52,377 nt of DNA. Origin: a virus. Under the pieces are notes generated by a model. The model had not been told where the DNA came from and did no database searches. It was given only the letters and a program-made list of their open reading frames with translations. Of this stretch, positions 13,787 to 52,377 are shown one piece after another. The translations under genes were made by a program, and so were the position numbers. Location: the IMG/VR virus record IMGVR_UViG_3300032294_001087, positions 1-52,377 of that record. One strand, given 5' to 3'. Within the stretch, counting starts at the first letter, position 1, and each line of letters opens with the position of its first letter.

Positions 13787-13832
13787 AAATTATCCTGTTG
13801 TCGATAATAAATACACGATAACAGGATAATTT
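13787..13832 (+). promoter_or_regulatory. Hairpin enclosing a late promoter and hiding the gp13 ribosome site
   Basis: Inverted repeat AAATTATCCTGTTGTCG (13787-13803) / CGATAACAGGATAATTT (13816-13832): 17 pairs with one G-U, loop ATAATAAATACA. The loop holds the late promoter; the right arm holds the AGGA ribosome site just before the ATG at 13835. A late transcript starting near 13819 would lack the left arm. Confidence 0.85.
13806..13813 (+). promoter_or_regulatory. T4-type late promoter AATAAATA
   Basis: AATAAATA in the loop of the 13787-13832 hairpin, 21 bases before the gp13 ATG. Expected start about 13819, within the right arm. Confidence 0.7.
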
Positions 13833-13834
13833 AA

Positions 13835-15028
13835 ATGTCTTTACTTCCAGCAAACGTTTCAGCAACCGGTAATCTAACTGCTACATTAAGTATGCAGACT
13901 GAAAGTCTGTATAATCCATACACAGGTACAGGTGCTGGACACATAGCATTTGATGCCAATTTAGCCGCACAGTTGACCACAGTACAAAGTCAACAAAATT
14001 CTATTATTGATTATATCCGTTTGCGATTAGGTTACGGCATGATTGATGTCGAAGCAGACAAAGAACACTTTGACATGGGAATCAAACAAGCACTTATTCG
14101 CTATCGTCAACGATCAAGTAACAGTGTAGAAGAAAGCTATGCTTTCTTAGACCTATACCCCGAAACACAAGAATACGTTCTTCCTAATACTGTCATGGAT
14201 GTAAAACAAGTATTTCGTCGTGGTATTGGTAGTGTCACTGGTACAACTGCTAGCCAATTTGAACCCTTTGCTAGCGGCTACCTCAACACTTATATGCTAG
14301 TAGCAGGTCGTGTTGGCGGCCTAACTAATTATGAATTGTTTGTAGATTATCAAAAACTTGCTATGAAAATGTTTGGCGGCTTTATGAATTTTACATGGAA
14401 TAAAGTCACCAAGAAACTAACTATTGTTCGCAAGATGCCTTTCCAAGGCGCTGGTGCTACCTTGAGATTAAAGAGCCTAACTGCTAGTGGTACTGCACCA
14501 GGTAGTACAGTTACTTTCCAAATTTCTAGTCAAGGTCCTTGGTCAGGAGTTAGTGTTGGCAGTACTGTTTCCATTACAAACTGCCCAGTTGCTGGCTATA
14601 ACGGTACATATACTATTACCAGTGTAGACCCTACACAGCAGATCTTTACATTTTTAAATACTGCGGCATTAGGTGCTACAGTTGTCAACGACATGTCTCT
14701 AGCCTCAACTTTTGTAAGTAGTCCAAGCAGTCCAGATAATGCTGTGACAGAAACAGTATTGCTATGGATCTACAACTACAAACCAGACATTATGTTGTTA
14801 AACGATCCCCAGGCATTTCCTTGGATCCAAGACTATGCTCTGGCATTAGTCATGATTTCAATTGGTCAAGCACGTGAAAAATTTGCATCAATCGCAGGTC
14901 CACAAGGCGGTACTAGTCTAAACGGTCAGGCACTTAAACAAGAAGGTGCAGAGCTATTAAAAGATCTAGATGAACAGATTAAAAATTACGTCGACGGTGG
15001 TCAACCATTAACCTGGATAATGGGTTAA
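13835..15028 (+). CDS. 13: Neck protein, gp13-like
   Basis: 397 aa. Recognised by IIDYIRLRLGYGMIDVEADK followed by HFDMGIKQALIRYRQRSSNS and VEESYAFLDLYPETQEYVLP, the conserved core of T4-type gp13 in marine phages; FGGFMNFTWNKVTKKLTIVR is also family-typical. A beta-rich segment at about 212-295 (TASGTAPGSTVTFQISS ... NGTYTITSVDPTQQIFTF) interrupts the core and looks like an inserted Ig-like or surface domain. The C-terminus resumes with VLLWIYNYKPDIMLLNDP and QDYALALVMISIGQAREKFA. It should form the neck that seals the portal for tail attachment. It is on the plus strand, whereas its partner gp14 is on the minus strand 2.5 kb upstream. Confidence 0.85.
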   Translation: MSLLPANVSATGNLTATLSMQTESLYNPYTGTGAGHIAFDANLAAQLTTVQSQQNSIIDYIRLRLGYGMIDVEADKEHFDMGIKQALIRYRQRSSNSVEESYAFLDLYPETQEYVLPNTVMDVKQVFRRGIGSVTGTTASQFEPFASGYLNTYMLVAGRVGGLTNYELFVDYQKLAMKMFGGFMNFTWNKVTKKLTIVRKMPFQGAGATLRLKSLTASGTAPGSTVTFQISSQGPWSGVSVGSTVSITNCPVAGYNGTYTITSVDPTQQIFTFLNTAALGATVVNDMSLASTFVSSPSSPDNAVTETVLLWIYNYKPDIMLLNDPQAFPWIQDYALALVMISIGQAREKFASIAGPQGGTSLNGQALKQEGAELLKDLDEQIKNYVDGGQPLTWIMG

Positions 15029-33927: not shown

Positions 33928-34560
33928 ATGTTAAGTAGGTTAGATGATATAATCTTTCCTAACCGATGTGAAGTTATAGAAATAGAAGCTTCACATCGGT
34001 ACATCTACCCCATCTTTAAAAATGGTAGTAGTAGTTTTTACGAGTATGCTCATCGGAATAACTGCAAGATATTATTAAATAATCAAATCACACGTATACC
34101 GATAGTAGATATTGTTCTGCGTGATCCTATGCAGAGATTTCTATCTGGAATTAATACCTATGTCTATAATACCAAACGTGATAACCCACAATTGGACGTA
34201 GATACTATTATATACTTTGCCGAAAAATATTTGTTTTTAAATAGACACTATGCTCCTCAACTAAGTTGGATTGTTAATTTATCCAAATATATAAACAAGA
34301 ATACCAGCTTATGCTTACATGATATGACTGTGATAAGTAAGTTTATTAATATATCAATTAAACCGGAAGAAACAAACATGCTGTCGGCTGAAGTATTAGA
34401 CCGACTAAAGAATAATTTACATAATGAAATGTATCAACGCTTAGACTATTATCTATTAGAAATGATAGGTCAGGAAGTTACATTCAGTGAGATATTAGCC
34501 TACTTACACGCTCAAGACCCAATAGCATATTCAAAATTAAAATGCACTGCCCTAGACTAG
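33928..34560 (+). CDS. Sulfotransferase-like protein
   Basis: 210 aa. YIYPIFKNGSSSFYEYAHRN (about residues 25-44) resembles the 5'-phosphosulfate loop of sulfotransferases (KxGSTS-type), and DIVLRDPMQRFLSGINTYVY (about 60-79) matches the 3'-phosphate motif (RDPxxRxxSxxxxY). These two motifs in the right order and spacing support a PAPS-dependent sulfotransferase fold. The family is common in marine phages but substrates are unknown. The C-terminal half is helical. Its 3' end overlaps the radical SAM gene by 19 bases, so the two are co-translated. No good ribosome site is visible 13 bases after gp32. Confidence 0.65.
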   Translation: MLSRLDDIIFPNRCEVIEIEASHRYIYPIFKNGSSSFYEYAHRNNCKILLNNQITRIPIVDIVLRDPMQRFLSGINTYVYNTKRDNPQLDVDTIIYFAEKYLFLNRHYAPQLSWIVNLSKYINKNTSLCLHDMTVISKFINISIKPEETNMLSAEVLDRLKNNLHNEMYQRLDYYLLEMIGQEVTFSEILAYLHAQDPIAYSKLKCTALD

Positions 34561-46389: not shown

Positions 46390-47127
46390 ATGAAAAATAT
46401 CGTATTATTAACATCAGCAGTTTATACTAACTATGGTATCTATAAACCAGCAGAACGTATCCAACAAACACTAGACACAGCTAAGAGTGCTAAGAAATAT
46501 ATTCCTGGCGCAGTAGTTATCCTAGTAGACAACAGCAAAGTTGACGTGCAGAATGATACTAGTGCAGAGTTTGAAGAACTTATTGACTTAGTTGACTATT
46601 ACATCGATAACAGCGATGATGCTGATATCCAATATTTCCATAATAATGTTGCTAACTATGATATCGGTAAGAATGCCATGGAAGCCATGGGTCTTATGAA
46701 AGCATTGACTTATATCAATGGTGACGAAGATATGAAAAAAATCATTGCTGATGCTGATCGTATTTTCAAACTCAGTGGTCGTTATCAAGTGACAGACAAG
46801 TTTGATATCACTAAGTTCAGCAACGCTAATACCAAAGACAAATATGTGTTTAAGCGAGCACAACCTAGTTGGATCAATCCAGCAGACACTGGTGTAAACA
46901 CACTATTACAAACACGTCTATGGTCATTTACTCCGGGCTTGTTGTTAGAGACCATGGATATCTATAAGAATATCATTGAAAACATGGTTAAGATGTTTAA
47001 TGAAAACAAATACATCGACAATGAACATAGTATGTCAAAATTTATTCCTAAAGATCGATTAGTTGAGTTAGAAACAGTGGGTCTTGTTGGTAACATCGCG
47101 CCAAATGGAATGATGATCATTGACTGA
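46390..47127 (+). CDS. Putative glycosyltransferase-like protein
   Basis: 245 aa, MKNIVLLTSAVYTNYGIYKP. Order: an N-terminal strand leading to ERIQQTLDTAKSAKKYIPGA and VVILVDNSKVD, resembling the start of a GT-A fold where a VD(N/D)S motif follows the second strand; KIIADADRIFKLSGRYQVTD (about 117-136) contains a D-x-D-like element and a SGRY motif seen in several phage sugar-transferase proteins. TRLWSFTPGLLLETMDIYKN follows. AAAGGACACTT is the ribosome site. Its stop overlaps the next start (TGATG). I infer a glycosyltransferase using sugars made by the neighbours. Confidence 0.6.
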   Translation: MKNIVLLTSAVYTNYGIYKPAERIQQTLDTAKSAKKYIPGAVVILVDNSKVDVQNDTSAEFEELIDLVDYYIDNSDDADIQYFHNNVANYDIGKNAMEAMGLMKALTYINGDEDMKKIIADADRIFKLSGRYQVTDKFDITKFSNANTKDKYVFKRAQPSWINPADTGVNTLLQTRLWSFTPGLLLETMDIYKNIIENMVKMFNENKYIDNEHSMSKFIPKDRLVELETVGLVGNIAPNGMMIID

Positions 47128-48056
47128 TGAAAAAGGTCCTGATACTAGGTGGTAATGGTTACATTGGCAGTAGACTGCGTCAAGTCTTGCGTGAACAGCA
47201 CTTTGTAAAATCAAACGATATCTGTTGGCATGCCTACGACGAAACTAGTGATCGCAGAGATTATCATAAACTTACCCGTGAAGAACTAGCAGAGTTTGAA
47301 GTAATTATTGTCTTGGCTGGTCACAGCAGTGTACCAAGTTGCATTGGTGAACTACCGGGACCATGGTTAAACAATGTCACTAACTTCACCGACCTGTTAG
47401 ATAAAACGACAGATCAGCTGATCATCTATGCTAGTAGTGCTAGTGTCTATGGTAACAGCAAGCCCGGTGAGCGACATAAGGAAATCAATACACACTTTAC
47501 TCCTGTTAATAATTATGACGTAACCAAACATGCATTAGATCAACAGGCTATCATTGCTAACTTGCGTGGTAAACGTGTAATTGGTCTACGTTTTGGTACC
47601 GTTAATGGTTGGGCACCTAACCTACGTGTTGATGTCATGATTAACAGCATGTATCACAGTGTGCAGAGTGGTCGAGGTATACAGGTTATGAATCGCCAGA
47701 TCAGTCGTGCTATGTTAGGCATAGAAGATCTATGTCGTGCTGTATTGCGATGCATAGAACAACCAGTATCTGGTATCTACAACTTGGCCAGTTTCAACAG
47801 TACAGTGGGAGAAATCGCCCAGGCAGTCAGTCAAAAGCTGGGGGTTGCTATAGTAGACAAGGGCACAACTGCCAATGCCTATGATTTTGCTATCGATACT
47901 ACCTTATTTGAACAAACATTTGATTTTACATTTACAGAAACACCTGCTACTATAGTAGATAGTTTAATAGAAAGCTACGAACAGTCGACTCCACAGTGGA
48001 GAGACAAATACGTAATTTATAATTGGGAACGAGAAGACTTATATGGAAGACGCTAA
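47127..48056 (+). CDS. NAD-dependent epimerase/reductase of sugar nucleotides
   Basis: 309 aa. KKVLILGGNGYIGSRLRQVL gives the GGxGxIG cofactor motif; VIIVLAGHSSVPSC corresponds to the AAxs strand, LIIYASSASVYGNSKPGERH to the Ser/Thr catalytic strand, and NNYDVTKHALDQQAI to YxxxK. GLRFGTVNGWAPNLRVDVMI is the usual region after the active site. It belongs to the extended SDR epimerases (GalE or GDP-fucose synthase type). In this operon it would epimerise or reduce the keto sugar. It overlaps the preceding stop by one base and the following gene by 14 bases. Confidence 0.85.
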   Translation: MKKVLILGGNGYIGSRLRQVLREQHFVKSNDICWHAYDETSDRRDYHKLTREELAEFEVIIVLAGHSSVPSCIGELPGPWLNNVTNFTDLLDKTTDQLIIYASSASVYGNSKPGERHKEINTHFTPVNNYDVTKHALDQQAIIANLRGKRVIGLRFGTVNGWAPNLRVDVMINSMYHSVQSGRGIQVMNRQISRAMLGIEDLCRAVLRCIEQPVSGIYNLASFNSTVGEIAQAVSQKLGVAIVDKGTTANAYDFAIDTTLFEQTFDFTFTETPATIVDSLIESYEQSTPQWRDKYVIYNWEREDLYGRR

Positions 48057-49251
48057 ACAACTTAAAGAATGCCTTTGCTGTGGTAGTGAGAGATTAAAAC
48101 TAGTATTAGATCTTAAAGAACAGCCATTAGCTAACAGTTTTAAGAAAACATCAGAGGAAACAGAACCATATTTCCCATTACGTTTAAACATCTGCGAAGA
48201 CTGCACACATCTACAATTAAGCCATGCGGTTAATCCGGATTTATTATTTAAGAACTATCTATATGTCAGTGGCACAAGCCAAACCCTACGTGACTACTTT
48301 GATTGGTTTGCTAAAGAAACACTTACCTACGCACCAGATGCTAAGACAGTGTTAGACATCGCCTGTAACGACGGTAGTCAATTAAACAGTTTCAAAGCAC
48401 TAGGATTAAAAACCTATGGTGTTGATCCCGCAGAAAATTTACACAAACTAAGTAACGCCAATCACGAAGTAGTGTGTGATTACTTTACTGACAAATATAC
48501 ATATCATTATAAGAATAAAAACTTAGATATTATTACAGCACAGAATGTGTTCGCACACAATAGCTATCCATTAGAGTTTTTACAGCAATGTAAAGAAATC
48601 ATGAGTGATACTAGTGTGTTATTCATACAGACCAGCCAAGCAGATATGATCAAGAACAATGAGTTTGATACTATCTATCATGAACATCTGAGTTTCTTCA
48701 ATTCAAGTTCAATGTCTGCGCTAGCGACACGTGCCGGATTACATATCATCGACATACAAAAAACGCCCATCCATGGTAATAGTTATTTGTTCGTTATGTC
48801 TAAGAATCCAGGAGCGAGATCAAGCGTTCAACATCAATTAGATCAAGAACGAGAACAAGGTCTACAGGATATGAATACCTATTCGGCCTATGCTGATCGT
48901 TGCTATACTATCGTAGAAGATCTCAATGAGACTATCCAACATTATCGTGGTCTGGGATATGTCATTGCGGGCTATGGCGCCGCAGCCAAAGGCATGACAT
49001 TGATTAATTTTGGTGATGTCAACTTGGATTTCGTCATAGATGACAATCCTCTAAAACAGGGATTGTTCTGTCCTGGTAGCAACATACCAGTGGTAGGAAT
49101 TGACATGTTAGACGAATGCCAAGATGTCCAAGTAGCATTTATACCATTGGCTTGGAATTTCTTCACTGAAATCCGTAGCAAAATTAAGACCAAACGTGAC
49201 CAAGAAGGTGATGTGTTCATCAAGTATTTTCCTAAAATAAGTATCGAGTGA
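48043..49251 (+). CDS. Sugar C-methyltransferase (TylC3/NovU-type)
   Basis: 402 aa. Three regions of the family are present. Zinc-binding N-terminus: KECLCCGSERLKLVLDLKEQ with PLANSF, then LNICEDCTHLQLSHAV. SAM-binding middle: TVLDIACNDGSQLNSFKALG and LKTYGVDPAENL. Catalytic segment: DTIYHEHLSFFNSSSMSALA (about 209-228) with the YHEH motif. C-terminal domain: YVIAGYGAAAKGMTLINFGD and DFVIDDNPLKQGLFCPGSNI. This set is diagnostic of enzymes that add a methyl branch to a 4-keto-deoxy sugar nucleotide. It makes the operon's likely product a branched, C-methylated deoxysugar. SAM use fits with the phage AdoHcy hydrolase. Confidence 0.9.
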   Translation: MEDAKQLKECLCCGSERLKLVLDLKEQPLANSFKKTSEETEPYFPLRLNICEDCTHLQLSHAVNPDLLFKNYLYVSGTSQTLRDYFDWFAKETLTYAPDAKTVLDIACNDGSQLNSFKALGLKTYGVDPAENLHKLSNANHEVVCDYFTDKYTYHYKNKNLDIITAQNVFAHNSYPLEFLQQCKEIMSDTSVLFIQTSQADMIKNNEFDTIYHEHLSFFNSSSMSALATRAGLHIIDIQKTPIHGNSYLFVMSKNPGARSSVQHQLDQEREQGLQDMNTYSAYADRCYTIVEDLNETIQHYRGLGYVIAGYGAAAKGMTLINFGDVNLDFVIDDNPLKQGLFCPGSNIPVVGIDMLDECQDVQVAFIPLAWNFFTEIRSKIKTKRDQEGDVFIKYFPKISIE

Positions 49252-50036
49252 TGTCAAAAAAAACCTTAATCAGTCACTTCTATAATGAAGAGTACATGCT
49301 ACCATGGTTCCTTAACCATCACAAGCAGATATTTGATCATGGGGTAATGATTGATTATCACTCAACAGATCGTAGCCGTGAGATCATCAAGGAAATATGT
49401 CCTACCTGGGATATCGTTACAAGCCGCAATCAAGATTTCCAAGCAGATACTATTGATACAGAAGTCAATGATATCGAACGTAATATCCAAGGGTGGAAGA
49501 TCTGTCTTAACGTAACAGAACAACTAATCGGCGACTATAGTATATTAGATGACACCCCTCGCCAATTACTAGTGCCTGGCGTGTTCTTTGTTGACTGTGA
49601 TCGTGAACGCACTGTTACCTATGATTTACCACTATATGAACAAAAGACAGATGGATTTATGTTCAGCGACAATGCACAGAACTTTTTTGAGCGTCGTAGC
49701 CGTAGCCTACATAATATTCCTGTGCATTATCCAGCACAATCAACAGTCGAATGTATGGCGCCCGGACGGCACTGGAATACCTATAACACAGATAAACTAG
49801 TAACATTCTACTACGGTTGGTGCCCATTTGATCAAGGACAACTAGCACGTAAGCTACAGATACAAACGCAAATACCACTAATTGATCGCCAATTAAATCG
49901 TGGCTTTCATCATATTACAAATAAAGAAACATTAACCTATAGACTTGAAAATGAGTTTATTCCTCGTTCAAGAGATATCTCAAAGGAAATACAGCAGTAT
50001 GTCAACAAACACAAAGATTTTTCAAATATACTTTAA
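49251..50036 (+). CDS. Glycosyltransferase family 2-like protein
   Basis: 261 aa from ATG at 49251 (TGATG overlap with the previous stop; a GTG one codon earlier is possible). TLISHFYNEEYMLPWFLNHH with NEE and GVMIDYHSTDRSREIIKEIC are the start of a glycosyltransferase 2/92-like GT-A fold (H(F/Y)NEE...W..HH...G.D...I.D..S.D.S). VPGVFFVDCDRERTV supplies a DxD-like metal site (about 104-118). HYPAQSTVECMAPGRHWNTY may be the acceptor part. It should transfer the activated sugar. It is coupled to both neighbours. Confidence 0.7.
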   Translation: MSKKTLISHFYNEEYMLPWFLNHHKQIFDHGVMIDYHSTDRSREIIKEICPTWDIVTSRNQDFQADTIDTEVNDIERNIQGWKICLNVTEQLIGDYSILDDTPRQLLVPGVFFVDCDRERTVTYDLPLYEQKTDGFMFSDNAQNFFERRSRSLHNIPVHYPAQSTVECMAPGRHWNTYNTDKLVTFYYGWCPFDQGQLARKLQIQTQIPLIDRQLNRGFHHITNKETLTYRLENEFIPRSRDISKEIQQYVNKHKDFSNIL

Positions 50037-50832
50037 ACCAGAGCTTGTGGCGCATTGTGATCCAGCATTCACTCCATTGGATAATACTGAAAATCCTCGC
50101 CCAGAATTACGTGAATGGTATGTATGGGACAAGGAACATAAAAACATCCTGGCGCAAGAATTAGATTATTGGGGATTCGTCAGTTGGAAATTCCAAGAGA
50201 AAACTGGCTTAACAGGCCAACAGGCTTTTGATTTTATTAATAATAATCCAGGGTATGATGTTTATCTATTCAATCCCTGTATTGTCAATGAAGCTGTATT
50301 TGCTAACAGTTGGGAACAAGGCGACATACATCATCCTAACATCAGCGGCATCGGTAACACATTTTTTGCCAAACTTGGTTATGAAGATATTGATGTTAAA
50401 TCGATAATTTTAGATCGCAACAAGACAGTGTTCGCTAACTATGTTGTTGGCAATCAAAAGTTTTGGACTAAGTTTATGGAATTCAGTCGTAATCTATTTA
50501 CAGAAGCAGACAAGGATCCTGGATTTAAACAACAGGTATTTGGGGAAGGATTGAGTAATTATGTCCATGATCGTAGTTTGCCAAACTTTACATTTTTAAT
50601 CGAACGATTGATCCCAACATTTTTAGAATTAGAAGAGTTGACTAGTATTGGATATAAATACTCTCCTGAAACTTTACCAGAAAAATATCGTCCTTATGCT
50701 GGAGATATTATGGCACTTAGTGATTTAAAAGTTGCTGTAAATCGCTACAATTCAGACGAATTATACGATATTTGGAACTTTTATCGCCACAAATTTCTAA
50801 GCCAACATCAAGGCATTTTAGGATTAGAATAG
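49999..50832 (+). CDS. Putative glycosyltransferase-like protein, last gene of sugar operon
   Basis: 277 aa from ATG at 49999 (MSTNTKIFQIYFKPELVAHC; CAAAGGAAA upstream). Overlaps the previous gene by 38 bases; an in-frame ATG at 49945 lies deeper in that gene and lacks a ribosome site. IFQIYFKPE and the following REWYVWDKEH, WGFVSWKFQEKTGLTGQQAF and NPGYDVYLFNPCIVNEAVFA, SNYVHDRSLPNFTFLIERLI are seen in phage and bacterial proteins linked to glycosyltransferases. No firm catalytic motif is visible. I infer a sugar-transfer role only from context. Confidence 0.5.
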   Translation: MSTNTKIFQIYFKPELVAHCDPAFTPLDNTENPRPELREWYVWDKEHKNILAQELDYWGFVSWKFQEKTGLTGQQAFDFINNNPGYDVYLFNPCIVNEAVFANSWEQGDIHHPNISGIGNTFFAKLGYEDIDVKSIILDRNKTVFANYVVGNQKFWTKFMEFSRNLFTEADKDPGFKQQVFGEGLSNYVHDRSLPNFTFLIERLIPTFLELEELTSIGYKYSPETLPEKYRPYAGDIMALSDLKVAVNRYNSDELYDIWNFYRHKFLSQHQGILGLE

Positions 50833-50850
50833 TTATCTCATATTTTGGTT

Positions 50851-50907
50851 AGTTTTATACGCATAAAACTCCGGATTCTCGTGACTACATAATACTACGT
50901 TCGGAGG
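50851..50907 (+). promoter_or_regulatory. Two overlapping hairpins before a small gene
   Basis: Hairpin 1: AGTTTTAT (50851-50858), loop ACGC, ATAAAACT (50863-50870), perfect. Hairpin 2: CTCCGGAT (50869-50876) with GTTCGGAG (50899-50906), eight pairs with G-U, covering the GGAGG ribosome site of the gene at 50915. The two share bases 50869-50870. Confidence 0.5.
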
Positions 50908-50914
50908 ATTCAGA

Positions 50915-51118
50915 ATGAGTAATAACCATGAAGCCGAATCAAGATACTATTGCGCAGGGAGATATTGCACAATGAGAGAAAGTTGTCACAGACACACATC
51001 AAGCACTGGAGTTAACCATGCTCCATTTGAAGACTATGATTTATTGGCATTAAAGACGCCAACTAAATTATGCCAACACTACATCGATCGCGACGTTGCG
51101 ACTGGTGTAAATTCTTAA
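50915..51118 (+). CDS. Small Cys/His-rich protein
   Basis: 67 aa, MSNNHEAESRYYCAGRYCTM, with Cys in YYCAGRYC, ESCHRHTSS and TKLCQHYID. Four Cys and several His could bind a metal. The CGGAGGATTCAG ribosome site is strong but can be sealed in the hairpin upstream. No family recognised; genes of this kind are frequent regulators in phages, but nothing visible proves it. Confidence 0.6.
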   Translation: MSNNHEAESRYYCAGRYCTMRESCHRHTSSTGVNHAPFEDYDLLALKTPTKLCQHYIDRDVATGVNS

Positions 51119-51158
51119 GGTAACTGCCTAAAGACAAATACTAACAGGAGGGAAGAAT

Positions 51159-51710
51159 ATGAACGTGTTCACACGATTCAAAAAAATACTAACCTGGACA
51201 ATGATGTCCACAACAGTTTTAGCACTAACAGCAACACCAATAGCACTAGGCAGTGAAGCCAGTGATTTTGGATTTAAATTAGTCAAACAGCAGGAAGCAA
51301 AAATTACCAGACAACTAACCTGCTTGGCTCGAAATGTATTCTATGAGGCTAATGGCGAACCCATGGCAGGGCAGATGGCAGTAGCACAGGTAACCGTCAA
51401 CAGAGCCAAGAGCGGACTGTTTCCGAATGATTTATGTGCGGTAGTAGCACAGACCACAGTAGTCGAAGGTGACAAGATCTGTCAATTTAGTTGGTACTGC
51501 GATAGTCGTATTAATAAAAATCGAGTAATCAATAAAAGCAGTCCTAGTTATATCGCCGCCAAAAAGGTCCTAGTAGATGGACAAAAAGTAGCTAAAATTG
51601 ACAAAGACGTCATGTGGTTCCACGAGGACTCAGTAAAGGTCAACCCACGTTGGCCACACAAGGTTGCTACCAAAATTGGTAACCATGTGTTCTACAAGCG
51701 ACAAAAATAA
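51159..51710 (+). CDS. SleB-type cell wall hydrolase with signal/anchor
   Basis: 183 aa. An N-terminal hydrophobic segment (about 10-31, ILTWTMMSTTVLALTATPIA) after basic MNVFTRFKK looks like a signal peptide or signal-anchor, so export is by the host Sec system. The catalytic domain starts LTCLARNVFYEANGEPMAGQ followed by MAVAQVTVNRAKSGLFP, the SleB/CwlJ hydrolase signature with its Glu, then CQFSWYCDSRINKN and a DVMWFHEDSVKVNPRWP end. It should cleave peptidoglycan and is the best candidate endolysin in the window. AACAGGAGGGAAG is a strong ribosome site. A membrane protein gene follows. Confidence 0.85.
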   Translation: MNVFTRFKKILTWTMMSTTVLALTATPIALGSEASDFGFKLVKQQEAKITRQLTCLARNVFYEANGEPMAGQMAVAQVTVNRAKSGLFPNDLCAVVAQTTVVEGDKICQFSWYCDSRINKNRVINKSSPSYIAAKKVLVDGQKVAKIDKDVMWFHEDSVKVNPRWPHKVATKIGNHVFYKRQK

Positions 51711-51713
51711 TCA

Positions 51714-51742
51714 TTGACAACATCCTATCACTCGTGTATAAT
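51714..51742 (+). promoter_or_regulatory. Sigma-70-type consensus promoter inside a hairpin
   Basis: TTGACA (51714-51719), 17 bases, TATAAT (51737-51742). The predicted start is 51749, the A of the next ATG. The -10 box lies in the upper stem and loop of the hairpin at 51725-51759. Confidence 0.9.
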
Positions 51743-51759
51743 ACATGCATGAGTGATAG
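51725..51759 (+). promoter_or_regulatory. 15-bp hairpin covering a start codon
   Basis: CTATCACTC (51725-51733) pairs perfectly with GAGTGATAG (51751-51759); GTGTAT (51734-51739) continues with ATGCAT (51745-51750) using two G-U pairs, loop AATAC. The ATG at 51749 is entirely in the right arm. RNA started at the local promoter would lack the left arm. Confidence 0.8.
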
Positions 51760-52072
51760 ATTCCACGATCCAAATTGGGGCAACCACGGTAATCCAAATC
51801 GAACTGATTGGTTCCACGCACCTCGCGGGTTAGATCAGTTAAACACAAAGAATTGGGGTATCAGACATAGAGATCGTCCAATGTTCCACGACGGCGTTGA
51901 AAAGAAAATCAGCGTCTGGACTATTTTTTGGGTTATTGCATTTATTATCATACTCAGTGGATTCAGCGAAACTGCCCGTGGAGTAGTATTCTATGGTATT
52001 AATCTAACTGAAAATTGGTATGCTGGTGTAGACAGCATGTTAGACGCCCTAGGAGCACCTAAGCTACCATGA
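51749..52072 (+). CDS. Small single-pass membrane protein next to the hydrolase
   Basis: 107 aa from ATG at 51749 (MSDRFHDPNWGNHGNPNRTD). A Trp/His/Asn-rich hydrophilic N-terminus (about 55 residues) is followed by one membrane segment (VWTIFWVIAFIIILSGF, about 58-74) and a short tail (GVVFYGINLTENWYAGVDSM). An in-frame GTG upstream lies in the promoter -10 region and is rejected. Possible roles: a holin- or spanin-like lysis helper, or a superinfection-exclusion protein; the early-type promoter argues against a pure lysis function. The next gene overlaps by ATGA. Confidence 0.65.
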   Translation: MSDRFHDPNWGNHGNPNRTDWFHAPRGLDQLNTKNWGIRHRDRPMFHDGVEKKISVWTIFWVIAFIIILSGFSETARGVVFYGINLTENWYAGVDSMLDALGAPKLP

Positions 52073-52239
52073 AAAATTTCCGCAGTTGGGTCCAGGATAA
52101 ATGGTATGATTACGTAGAAGAAATCATGGCTTGGGAAAAACGCATACCCGATCTTAACAGCCAGCAGTATTTCCGCAAGTACCGTTGGATGCTAAAAACT
52201 CTATATAAACACGAGCTAAAACATAAAGCAACTAAATAA
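52069..52239 (+). CDS. Small basic hypothetical protein, 56 aa
   Basis: MKNFRSWVQDKWYDYVEEIM followed by AWEKRIPDLNSQQYFRKYRW and a basic end (KTLYKHELKHKATK). It overlaps the preceding stop by four bases (ATGA), so it is coupled to the membrane protein. Rich in Trp/Tyr/Lys and helical. A hairpin terminator follows the stop. No family recognised. Confidence 0.6.
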   Translation: MKNFRSWVQDKWYDYVEEIMAWEKRIPDLNSQQYFRKYRWMLKTLYKHELKHKATK

Positions 52240-52242
52240 TTG

Positions 52243-52267
52243 TATAGTGACAAAATCACTATATTTT
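52243..52267 (+). terminator. Probable terminator
   Basis: TATAGTGA (52243-52250), loop CAAAA, TCACTATA (52256-52263), then TTTT. The stem is AT-rich and the T run short, so termination may be partial. Confidence 0.6.
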
Positions 52268-52299
52268 AACAAACTGCCCAAAAGGCGAAAGGAAGTAAA

Positions 52300-52377
52300 A
52301 TGGCAAATTATAATGTATCAGGGTTACAAACCCTAAGTGATCTAGCCGCAGAAGCTATGGTCAAGAGCATTCCTAGC
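52300..52377 (+). CDS. Start of a gene cut by the window end
   Basis: ATG at 52300 after AAAGGCGAAAGGAAGT; 26 codons visible, MANYNVSGLQTLSDLAAEAM then VKSIPS. A good ribosome site and the terminator upstream support a real start. The product cannot be identified from this fragment. Confidence 0.6.
   Translation, partial: MANYNVSGLQTLSDLAAEAMVKSIPS

Follow-up and report, generated by a model that had tools for sequence, protein, structure and literature searches.

In bacteriophage T4, the genes e, soc, 49 and I-TevI carry stems that hide the Shine-Dalgarno sequence or the AUG in early read-through RNA (PMC3014915). For e and I-TevI, the position of a late promoter ensures that late transcripts do not include the 5' arm of the stem, and the effect of the hairpin on e amounts to about 100-fold (PMC3014915). 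Where T4 homing endonuclease genes have specific promoters, these belong to the middle or late class, and early ones are absent (PMC2988022). A preliminary description of the locus studied here had stated that promoters within hairpins are known from T4 but not with an early promoter, and both reviews agree with this (PMC3014915, PMC2988022).

The locus and its closest counterparts

The window, that is, the whole stretch of 52,377 nucleotides that was analysed, is a 52-kb virus record from a T4-like phage, as judged by its gene content (tail sheath, tail tube, single-strand DNA-binding protein and UvsX-like recombinase). Its terminase shows the best likeness to the terminases of large T4-like phages, and a late-promoter box, GATAAATA, lies 15-29 nt upstream of several of its genes, mostly structural ones. 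The features of the locus are as follows:

51159-51710, plus strand: SleB-type cell wall hydrolase (Hydrolase_2; Pfam PF07486, E 3e-22; PHROG endolysin families)
51714-51719, plus strand: -35 element TTGACA, 12/12 consensus together with the -10 element; TTGAC kept in all relatives
51725-51739, plus strand: hairpin left arm, lying before the predicted transcript start and hence missing from the local transcript; covaries with the right arm
51737-51742, plus strand: -10 element TATAAT, 17-nt spacer to the -35 element; invariant in the alignment of relatives
51745-51759, plus strand: right arm of the hairpin, which includes the ATG together with most of codons 2-4; covaries with the left arm
51749-51751, plus strand: start codon and predicted transcription start (leaderless); same TATAAT-N6-ATG spacing in 13/13 relatives
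51749-52072, plus strand: protein of 107 aa, apparently spanning the membrane once (by sequence); relatives found by protein search
52069-52239, plus strand: 56-aa open reading frame, ATGA overlap with the preceding gene; also in locus L092 by sequence
52243-52263, plus strand: terminator-like 8-bp hairpin followed by TTTT, closing the local unit; relatives differ in the stem sequence but keep it paired

This arrangement resembles that of the four T4 genes, in which the promoter also lies between or within the arms, the read-through fold hides the start and the 5' arm is missing from the local RNA (PMC3014915, PMC2988022). The mobE gene of Aeromonas phage Aeh1 is similar in that a hairpin sequesters the translation start inside a transcribed operon, but this gene encodes a homing endonuclease and has a ribosome binding site (PMC2988022). 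As in the T4 class, a stable stem at our locus joins the translation start to nucleotides that precede the local transcript start; the -10 element ends at 51742 and transcription is predicted to start at 51749, so that the local RNA would be devoid of the left arm. The T4 class uses the late promoter TATAAATA, whereas the promoter found here has the sigma-70 consensus and the late box occurs elsewhere in the phage. Furthermore, the T4 class hides the Shine-Dalgarno sequence and/or the AUG of a leadered mRNA, whereas here there is no Shine-Dalgarno sequence and the mRNA is predicted to be leaderless. Because the promoter is not late and a Shine-Dalgarno sequence is lacking, we call this case a variant of the T4-type device: the putative mechanism matches the one already known, and what appears to be new is a host-type promoter together with a predicted leaderless mRNA.

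In IS10 and IS50, read-through transposase mRNA folds back and hides its start, which protects these elements from outside promoters. There too, a host-type promoter lies by an inverted repeat, and the fold and the hidden start arise solely in the read-through RNA; in contrast to our locus, the repeats are mobile element ends that double as transposase sites, and the mRNA is leadered and has a Shine-Dalgarno sequence. The lambda cI gene provides an example of a leaderless mRNA made from a host-type promoter, PRM, and we know of no start-hiding read-through hairpin in that system.

Promoter, hairpin and predicted access to the start codon

The preliminary description had reported a consensus sigma-70 promoter within a 15-bp hairpin that takes in the start codon. 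Its sequence and coordinates for the 51725-51759 region are correct, the promoter matches the consensus at 12 of 12 positions with a 17-nt spacer, and the ATG at 51749 does fall inside the right arm. The count of 15 pairs is right when wobble is included, since 13 pairs are Watson-Crick and two are G-U, around a 5-nt loop (51740-51744). The -10 element, which had been placed at the tip, indeed spans it; more precisely, its TAT belongs to the paired left arm and its AAT to the loop.

The 12/12 promoter (51714-51742) is unique within 47000-52377, and exact TTGACA-N16-18-TATAAT matches number three in the window versus 0.14 expected. Transcription is predicted to start at the A of the ATG, 7 nt past the -10 element, yielding a leaderless mRNA. 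The six nucleotides between the -10 element and the ATG read ACATGC, ACTTGC, CTTTAC, GTTTAC, ATTTGC or ACTTAC in the relatives, and none of the aligned relatives has a Shine-Dalgarno site there. The -35 element begins after a gap of only 3 nt from the end of the hydrolase gene, and the left arm starts about 15 nt past the hydrolase stop codon; read-through RNA from this upstream gene would include the hairpin. No conserved late or sigma-70 promoter was seen immediately upstream of the hydrolase in the relatives compared. At the other end of the local unit, the hairpin at 52243-52263 has the stems ATAGTGA/TCACTAT, ATAGCGA/TCGCTAT and ATAGCTA/TGGCTAT in relatives and, together with its TTTT, is probably a weak terminator. 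The 107-aa membrane protein has no Pfam or PHROG match and no match in named phages or prokaryote genomes, the DNA of the region shows no similarity match to named phages, and an Rfam scan of 51000-52377 returned no match up to E = 1.

The hairpin has a folding energy of -21.3 kcal/mol (z -5.35), and equal stability was reached in 0/200 shuffles. Hairpins with at least 14 contiguous pairs number four in the window versus 0.45 expected per shuffled window. A 14-pair hairpin at 33962-34000 lies within the coding region 33928-34560 and has no evident role. Among the 48 gene starts of the window, the folding score at 51749 is the second most extreme, and only two starts, 51749 and 13835, have z below -5, both of them with a promoter in a hairpin.

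Accessibility was evaluated as the predicted probability that the AUG is unpaired, in a long RNA with 150 nt of upstream sequence and in an RNA starting at the A of the AUG. In the long RNA this probability was 0.001 in all 10 loci tested, while in the short RNA it reached 0.58-0.98 in nine loci. The proposal that the AUG is hidden in read-through RNA and open in local RNA agrees with this predicted folding, the counterexample being L094, whose short RNA is predicted to be just 24% open at the AUG (0.24).

In the mechanism that we propose, host sigma-70 RNA polymerase would start at the A of the ATG and make a leaderless mRNA without the left arm, leaving the AUG open for ribosomes. Read-through transcripts from the hydrolase would carry both arms and fold into the 15-pair stem, locking the AUG so that it could not be used, for instance by ribosomes terminating at the end of the hydrolase gene, 38 nt upstream. 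With the AUG locked in read-through RNA and open in local RNA, the membrane protein would be made solely when the local promoter fires. We put at roughly three in four the probability that this promoter-in-hairpin switch makes the membrane-protein gene deaf to the transcription of its upstream neighbour. As a counterpoint, the long RNA has no Shine-Dalgarno sequence near the ATG and might be translated poorly even without the hairpin.

Such a switch may well benefit the phage. Genes in phage genomes follow one another closely, head to tail, and transcription spills over from each into its successor; the locus would offer a T4-like answer to this leakage, but with an ordinary host promoter, without a ribosome-binding site and in as few as 46 nt, making the device compact and portable. 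It also predicts that leaderless initiation strongly discriminates between a free 5' AUG and an AUG enclosed in a stem.

Conservation, covariation and competing explanations

Relatives were collected by protein searches with the membrane protein and its relatives, an unbiased procedure that yielded 20 phage loci. The junction between the hydrolase and the membrane protein is kept in 13 of these, and promoter, N6-ATG spacing and hairpin are present in all 13/13. One further locus is truncated, and the remaining six have an additional small gene between the two; there, the membrane-protein gene overlaps the extra gene start to stop and has neither promoter nor hairpin of its own. A match from a pattern scan, L102, proved to be an unrelated 13-codon open reading frame and was dropped.

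The covariation alignment comprised 12 sequences, nine of them distinct, and 96.3% of the cells of the 15-pair helix are paired. Changes on both sides of a pair were found in columns 16/42 (C-G, A-U, U-A), 17/41 (A-U, G-C) and 18/40 (C-G, U-A), for a total of 11 cells. The number of paired cells, the covariation score and the number of two-sided cells were each reached by 0/500 shuffles. The count of two-sided pairs (three) was also reached by 74/500 shuffles, and the strength of the covariation therefore lies in the cells and the score. When the helix was slid as a control, pairing dropped to 19-52%. Absence of arm complementarity in close relatives had been named beforehand as evidence that would speak against the hairpin; instead, the helix is kept in the nine distinct sequences, and the covariation sought between the arms in homologous loci is found in the three pairs changed on both sides.

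The pattern of change is informative in several respects. The 14-pair core shows no mismatches across the nine distinct sequences, with G-U pairs persisting. The outer CTAT/ATAG of the arms is nearly constant, and the middle three positions vary in step with their partners. The six nucleotides between the -10 element and the ATG are variable in the loop and keep their pairing in the stem, with the exception of the loop-closing pair. The right arm encodes residues 2-4 (SDR, SYR, NNR or DNR, giving protein starts MSDR, MSYR, MNNR and MDNR), and the non-coding left arm tracks it. Four arm types were distinguished, corresponding to few independent events, at least three; the branching of a hydrolase tree used for counting them was not resolved. 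Such coordinated substitutions among the related phages show that selection maintains the hairpin.

The hairpin might instead serve the upstream RNA, by shielding the hydrolase mRNA at its 3' end or by providing a site for RNase cleavage, the burial of the ATG being a side effect. Its position about 15 nt past the hydrolase stop would suit such a role, as would the fact that it would form solely in read-through RNA. We nevertheless consider this improbable: it accounts neither for the constant enclosure of the start codon in the stem nor for the way the left arm tracks codons 2-4, and homologs with an inserted gene bear a hairpin at the start of the inserted gene instead. Moreover, no U-run lies downstream of the hairpin, so it is not an intrinsic terminator.

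Slightly less probable still is that the inverted repeat is a DNA operator, on which a dimeric repressor binding both half-sites across the -10 element and the start would shut the promoter. The repeat is centred on the promoter and its outer CTAT/ATAG is nearly constant, as an operator would have it. However, the middle three positions change freely with their partners, unlike a recognition sequence, and copies of the half-site elsewhere in the window are not above chance. The inner part, owing to its G-U pairs, is not a symmetric DNA palindrome. The one-sided changes in the outer 14 pairs are all exchanges between G-U and Watson-Crick pairs on the sense strand, which on the other strand would be A-C, and such a restriction to one strand is irrelevant to a DNA-binding dimer. 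Rather than a conserved half-site with two-fold symmetry, the locus has a covarying half-site core and sense-strand G-U pairs. Because the one-sided changes keep G-U on the sense strand, selection most likely acts on the sense RNA rather than on a DNA operator or cruciform.

Templated mutation could also generate covariation without selection for RNA folding, by copying one arm of a quasi-palindrome to the other, and templated correction of quasi-palindromes is established. This process would yield perfect arms, yet here G-U pairs persist and mismatches are absent from 14 pairs over nine sequences; unrelated hairpins have also arisen at the same junction, and we regard this explanation as very unlikely. 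A chance overlap of a strong promoter and an inverted repeat deserves almost no credence: TGTATAATACA is itself nearly symmetric and makes the inner pairs cheap, but the z of -5.35, the conservation and the scarcity of hairpins at most phage leaderless consensus promoters argue against it, and the covariation refutes it.

Promoter-hairpins at other genes

The six loci with an extra gene offer a second case at the same junction, since the extra gene behind the hydrolase is equipped with a sigma-70 promoter of its own, set in an inverted repeat of unrelated sequence. In five identical loci (L118-L122), a 71-aa leaderless sigma-70 gene behind the SleB-type hydrolase (around 1240-1310 in L118) has the arrangement TTGACA-17-TATAAT-N6-ATG within an interrupted stem of 19 pairs (-24.6 kcal/mol, z -5.96). 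The AUG of L118 lies in an 18-nt loop, outside the stem, and what recurs is therefore a promoter in a hairpin, not strictly the burial of the AUG. In the sixth, L111, ATCAATT/AATTGAT surrounds TTGACA-17-TACAAT, and the predicted accessibility of the AUG is 0.006 in the long RNA versus 0.857 in the short one. A check of other SleB-type hydrolase loci (43 listed) revealed no promoter-hairpin of this kind downstream of the hydrolase.

The same phages have another conserved leaderless sigma-70 gene (TATAATAATAGTATG), which has no strong hairpin but an intrinsic terminator directly before its promoter. Leaderless sigma-70 genes in L205, L206 and L209-L213 have an intrinsic terminator directly upstream of the -35 element. 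Hairpin and terminator could represent two ways to exclude upstream transcription, the former by making the RNA unreadable and the latter by stopping it.

Ahead of the gene at 13835-15028, the window also has a 17-pair hairpin (13787-13832), whose loop contains the late box AATAAATA (13806-13813) and whose right arm includes the Shine-Dalgarno AGGA. Most of 38 relatives retain this hairpin with covariation, three pairs being altered in both arms, and by these sequence features it is a classical T4-type late-promoter hairpin. Use of the T4-type device by this phage family makes the sigma-70 version easier to accept.

To place the locus in a wider context, leaderless consensus sigma-70 promoters were surveyed in phage contigs, giving at least 80 with an open reading frame of at least 50 codons and enough flank. 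Among the matches listed, the median z was about 0 and most promoters had no hairpin. Four of these listed matches (at least 80) had z below -3, all directly behind a same-strand gene: the window's membrane-protein family and, classified by eye, a phosphatase-like (L258), a GIY-YIG-like (L290) and a primase-like gene (L238). Leaderless sigma-70 promoter-hairpins behind a same-strand gene were noted in L290 (on the reverse strand), L258, L238 and L279, the last also primase-like by eye. A z below -2 was observed for 8/49 genes directly behind a same-strand gene versus 1/31 others among the matches listed, and the overall difference in hairpins between the two groups was not significant (p 0.26 among the 80 listed). 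The promoter-hairpin device seems to recur but not to be the rule. It is conceivable, although we would bet against it, that several unrelated phage gene families share a general device of about 46 nt, in which a silencing hairpin is fused with a host-type promoter and a leaderless start. A gene so equipped would be expressed early from its own promoter and silent in later read-through RNA, reversing the timing of the T4 lysozyme switch.

Finally, in three loci (L005 at 3611, L008 at 3544 and L009 at 4173) the late box GATAAATA lies inside the spacer of a TTGACA...TAAAAT promoter, some 550-600 nt beyond the start of the membrane-protein gene; these sites are possible dual early/late promoters.
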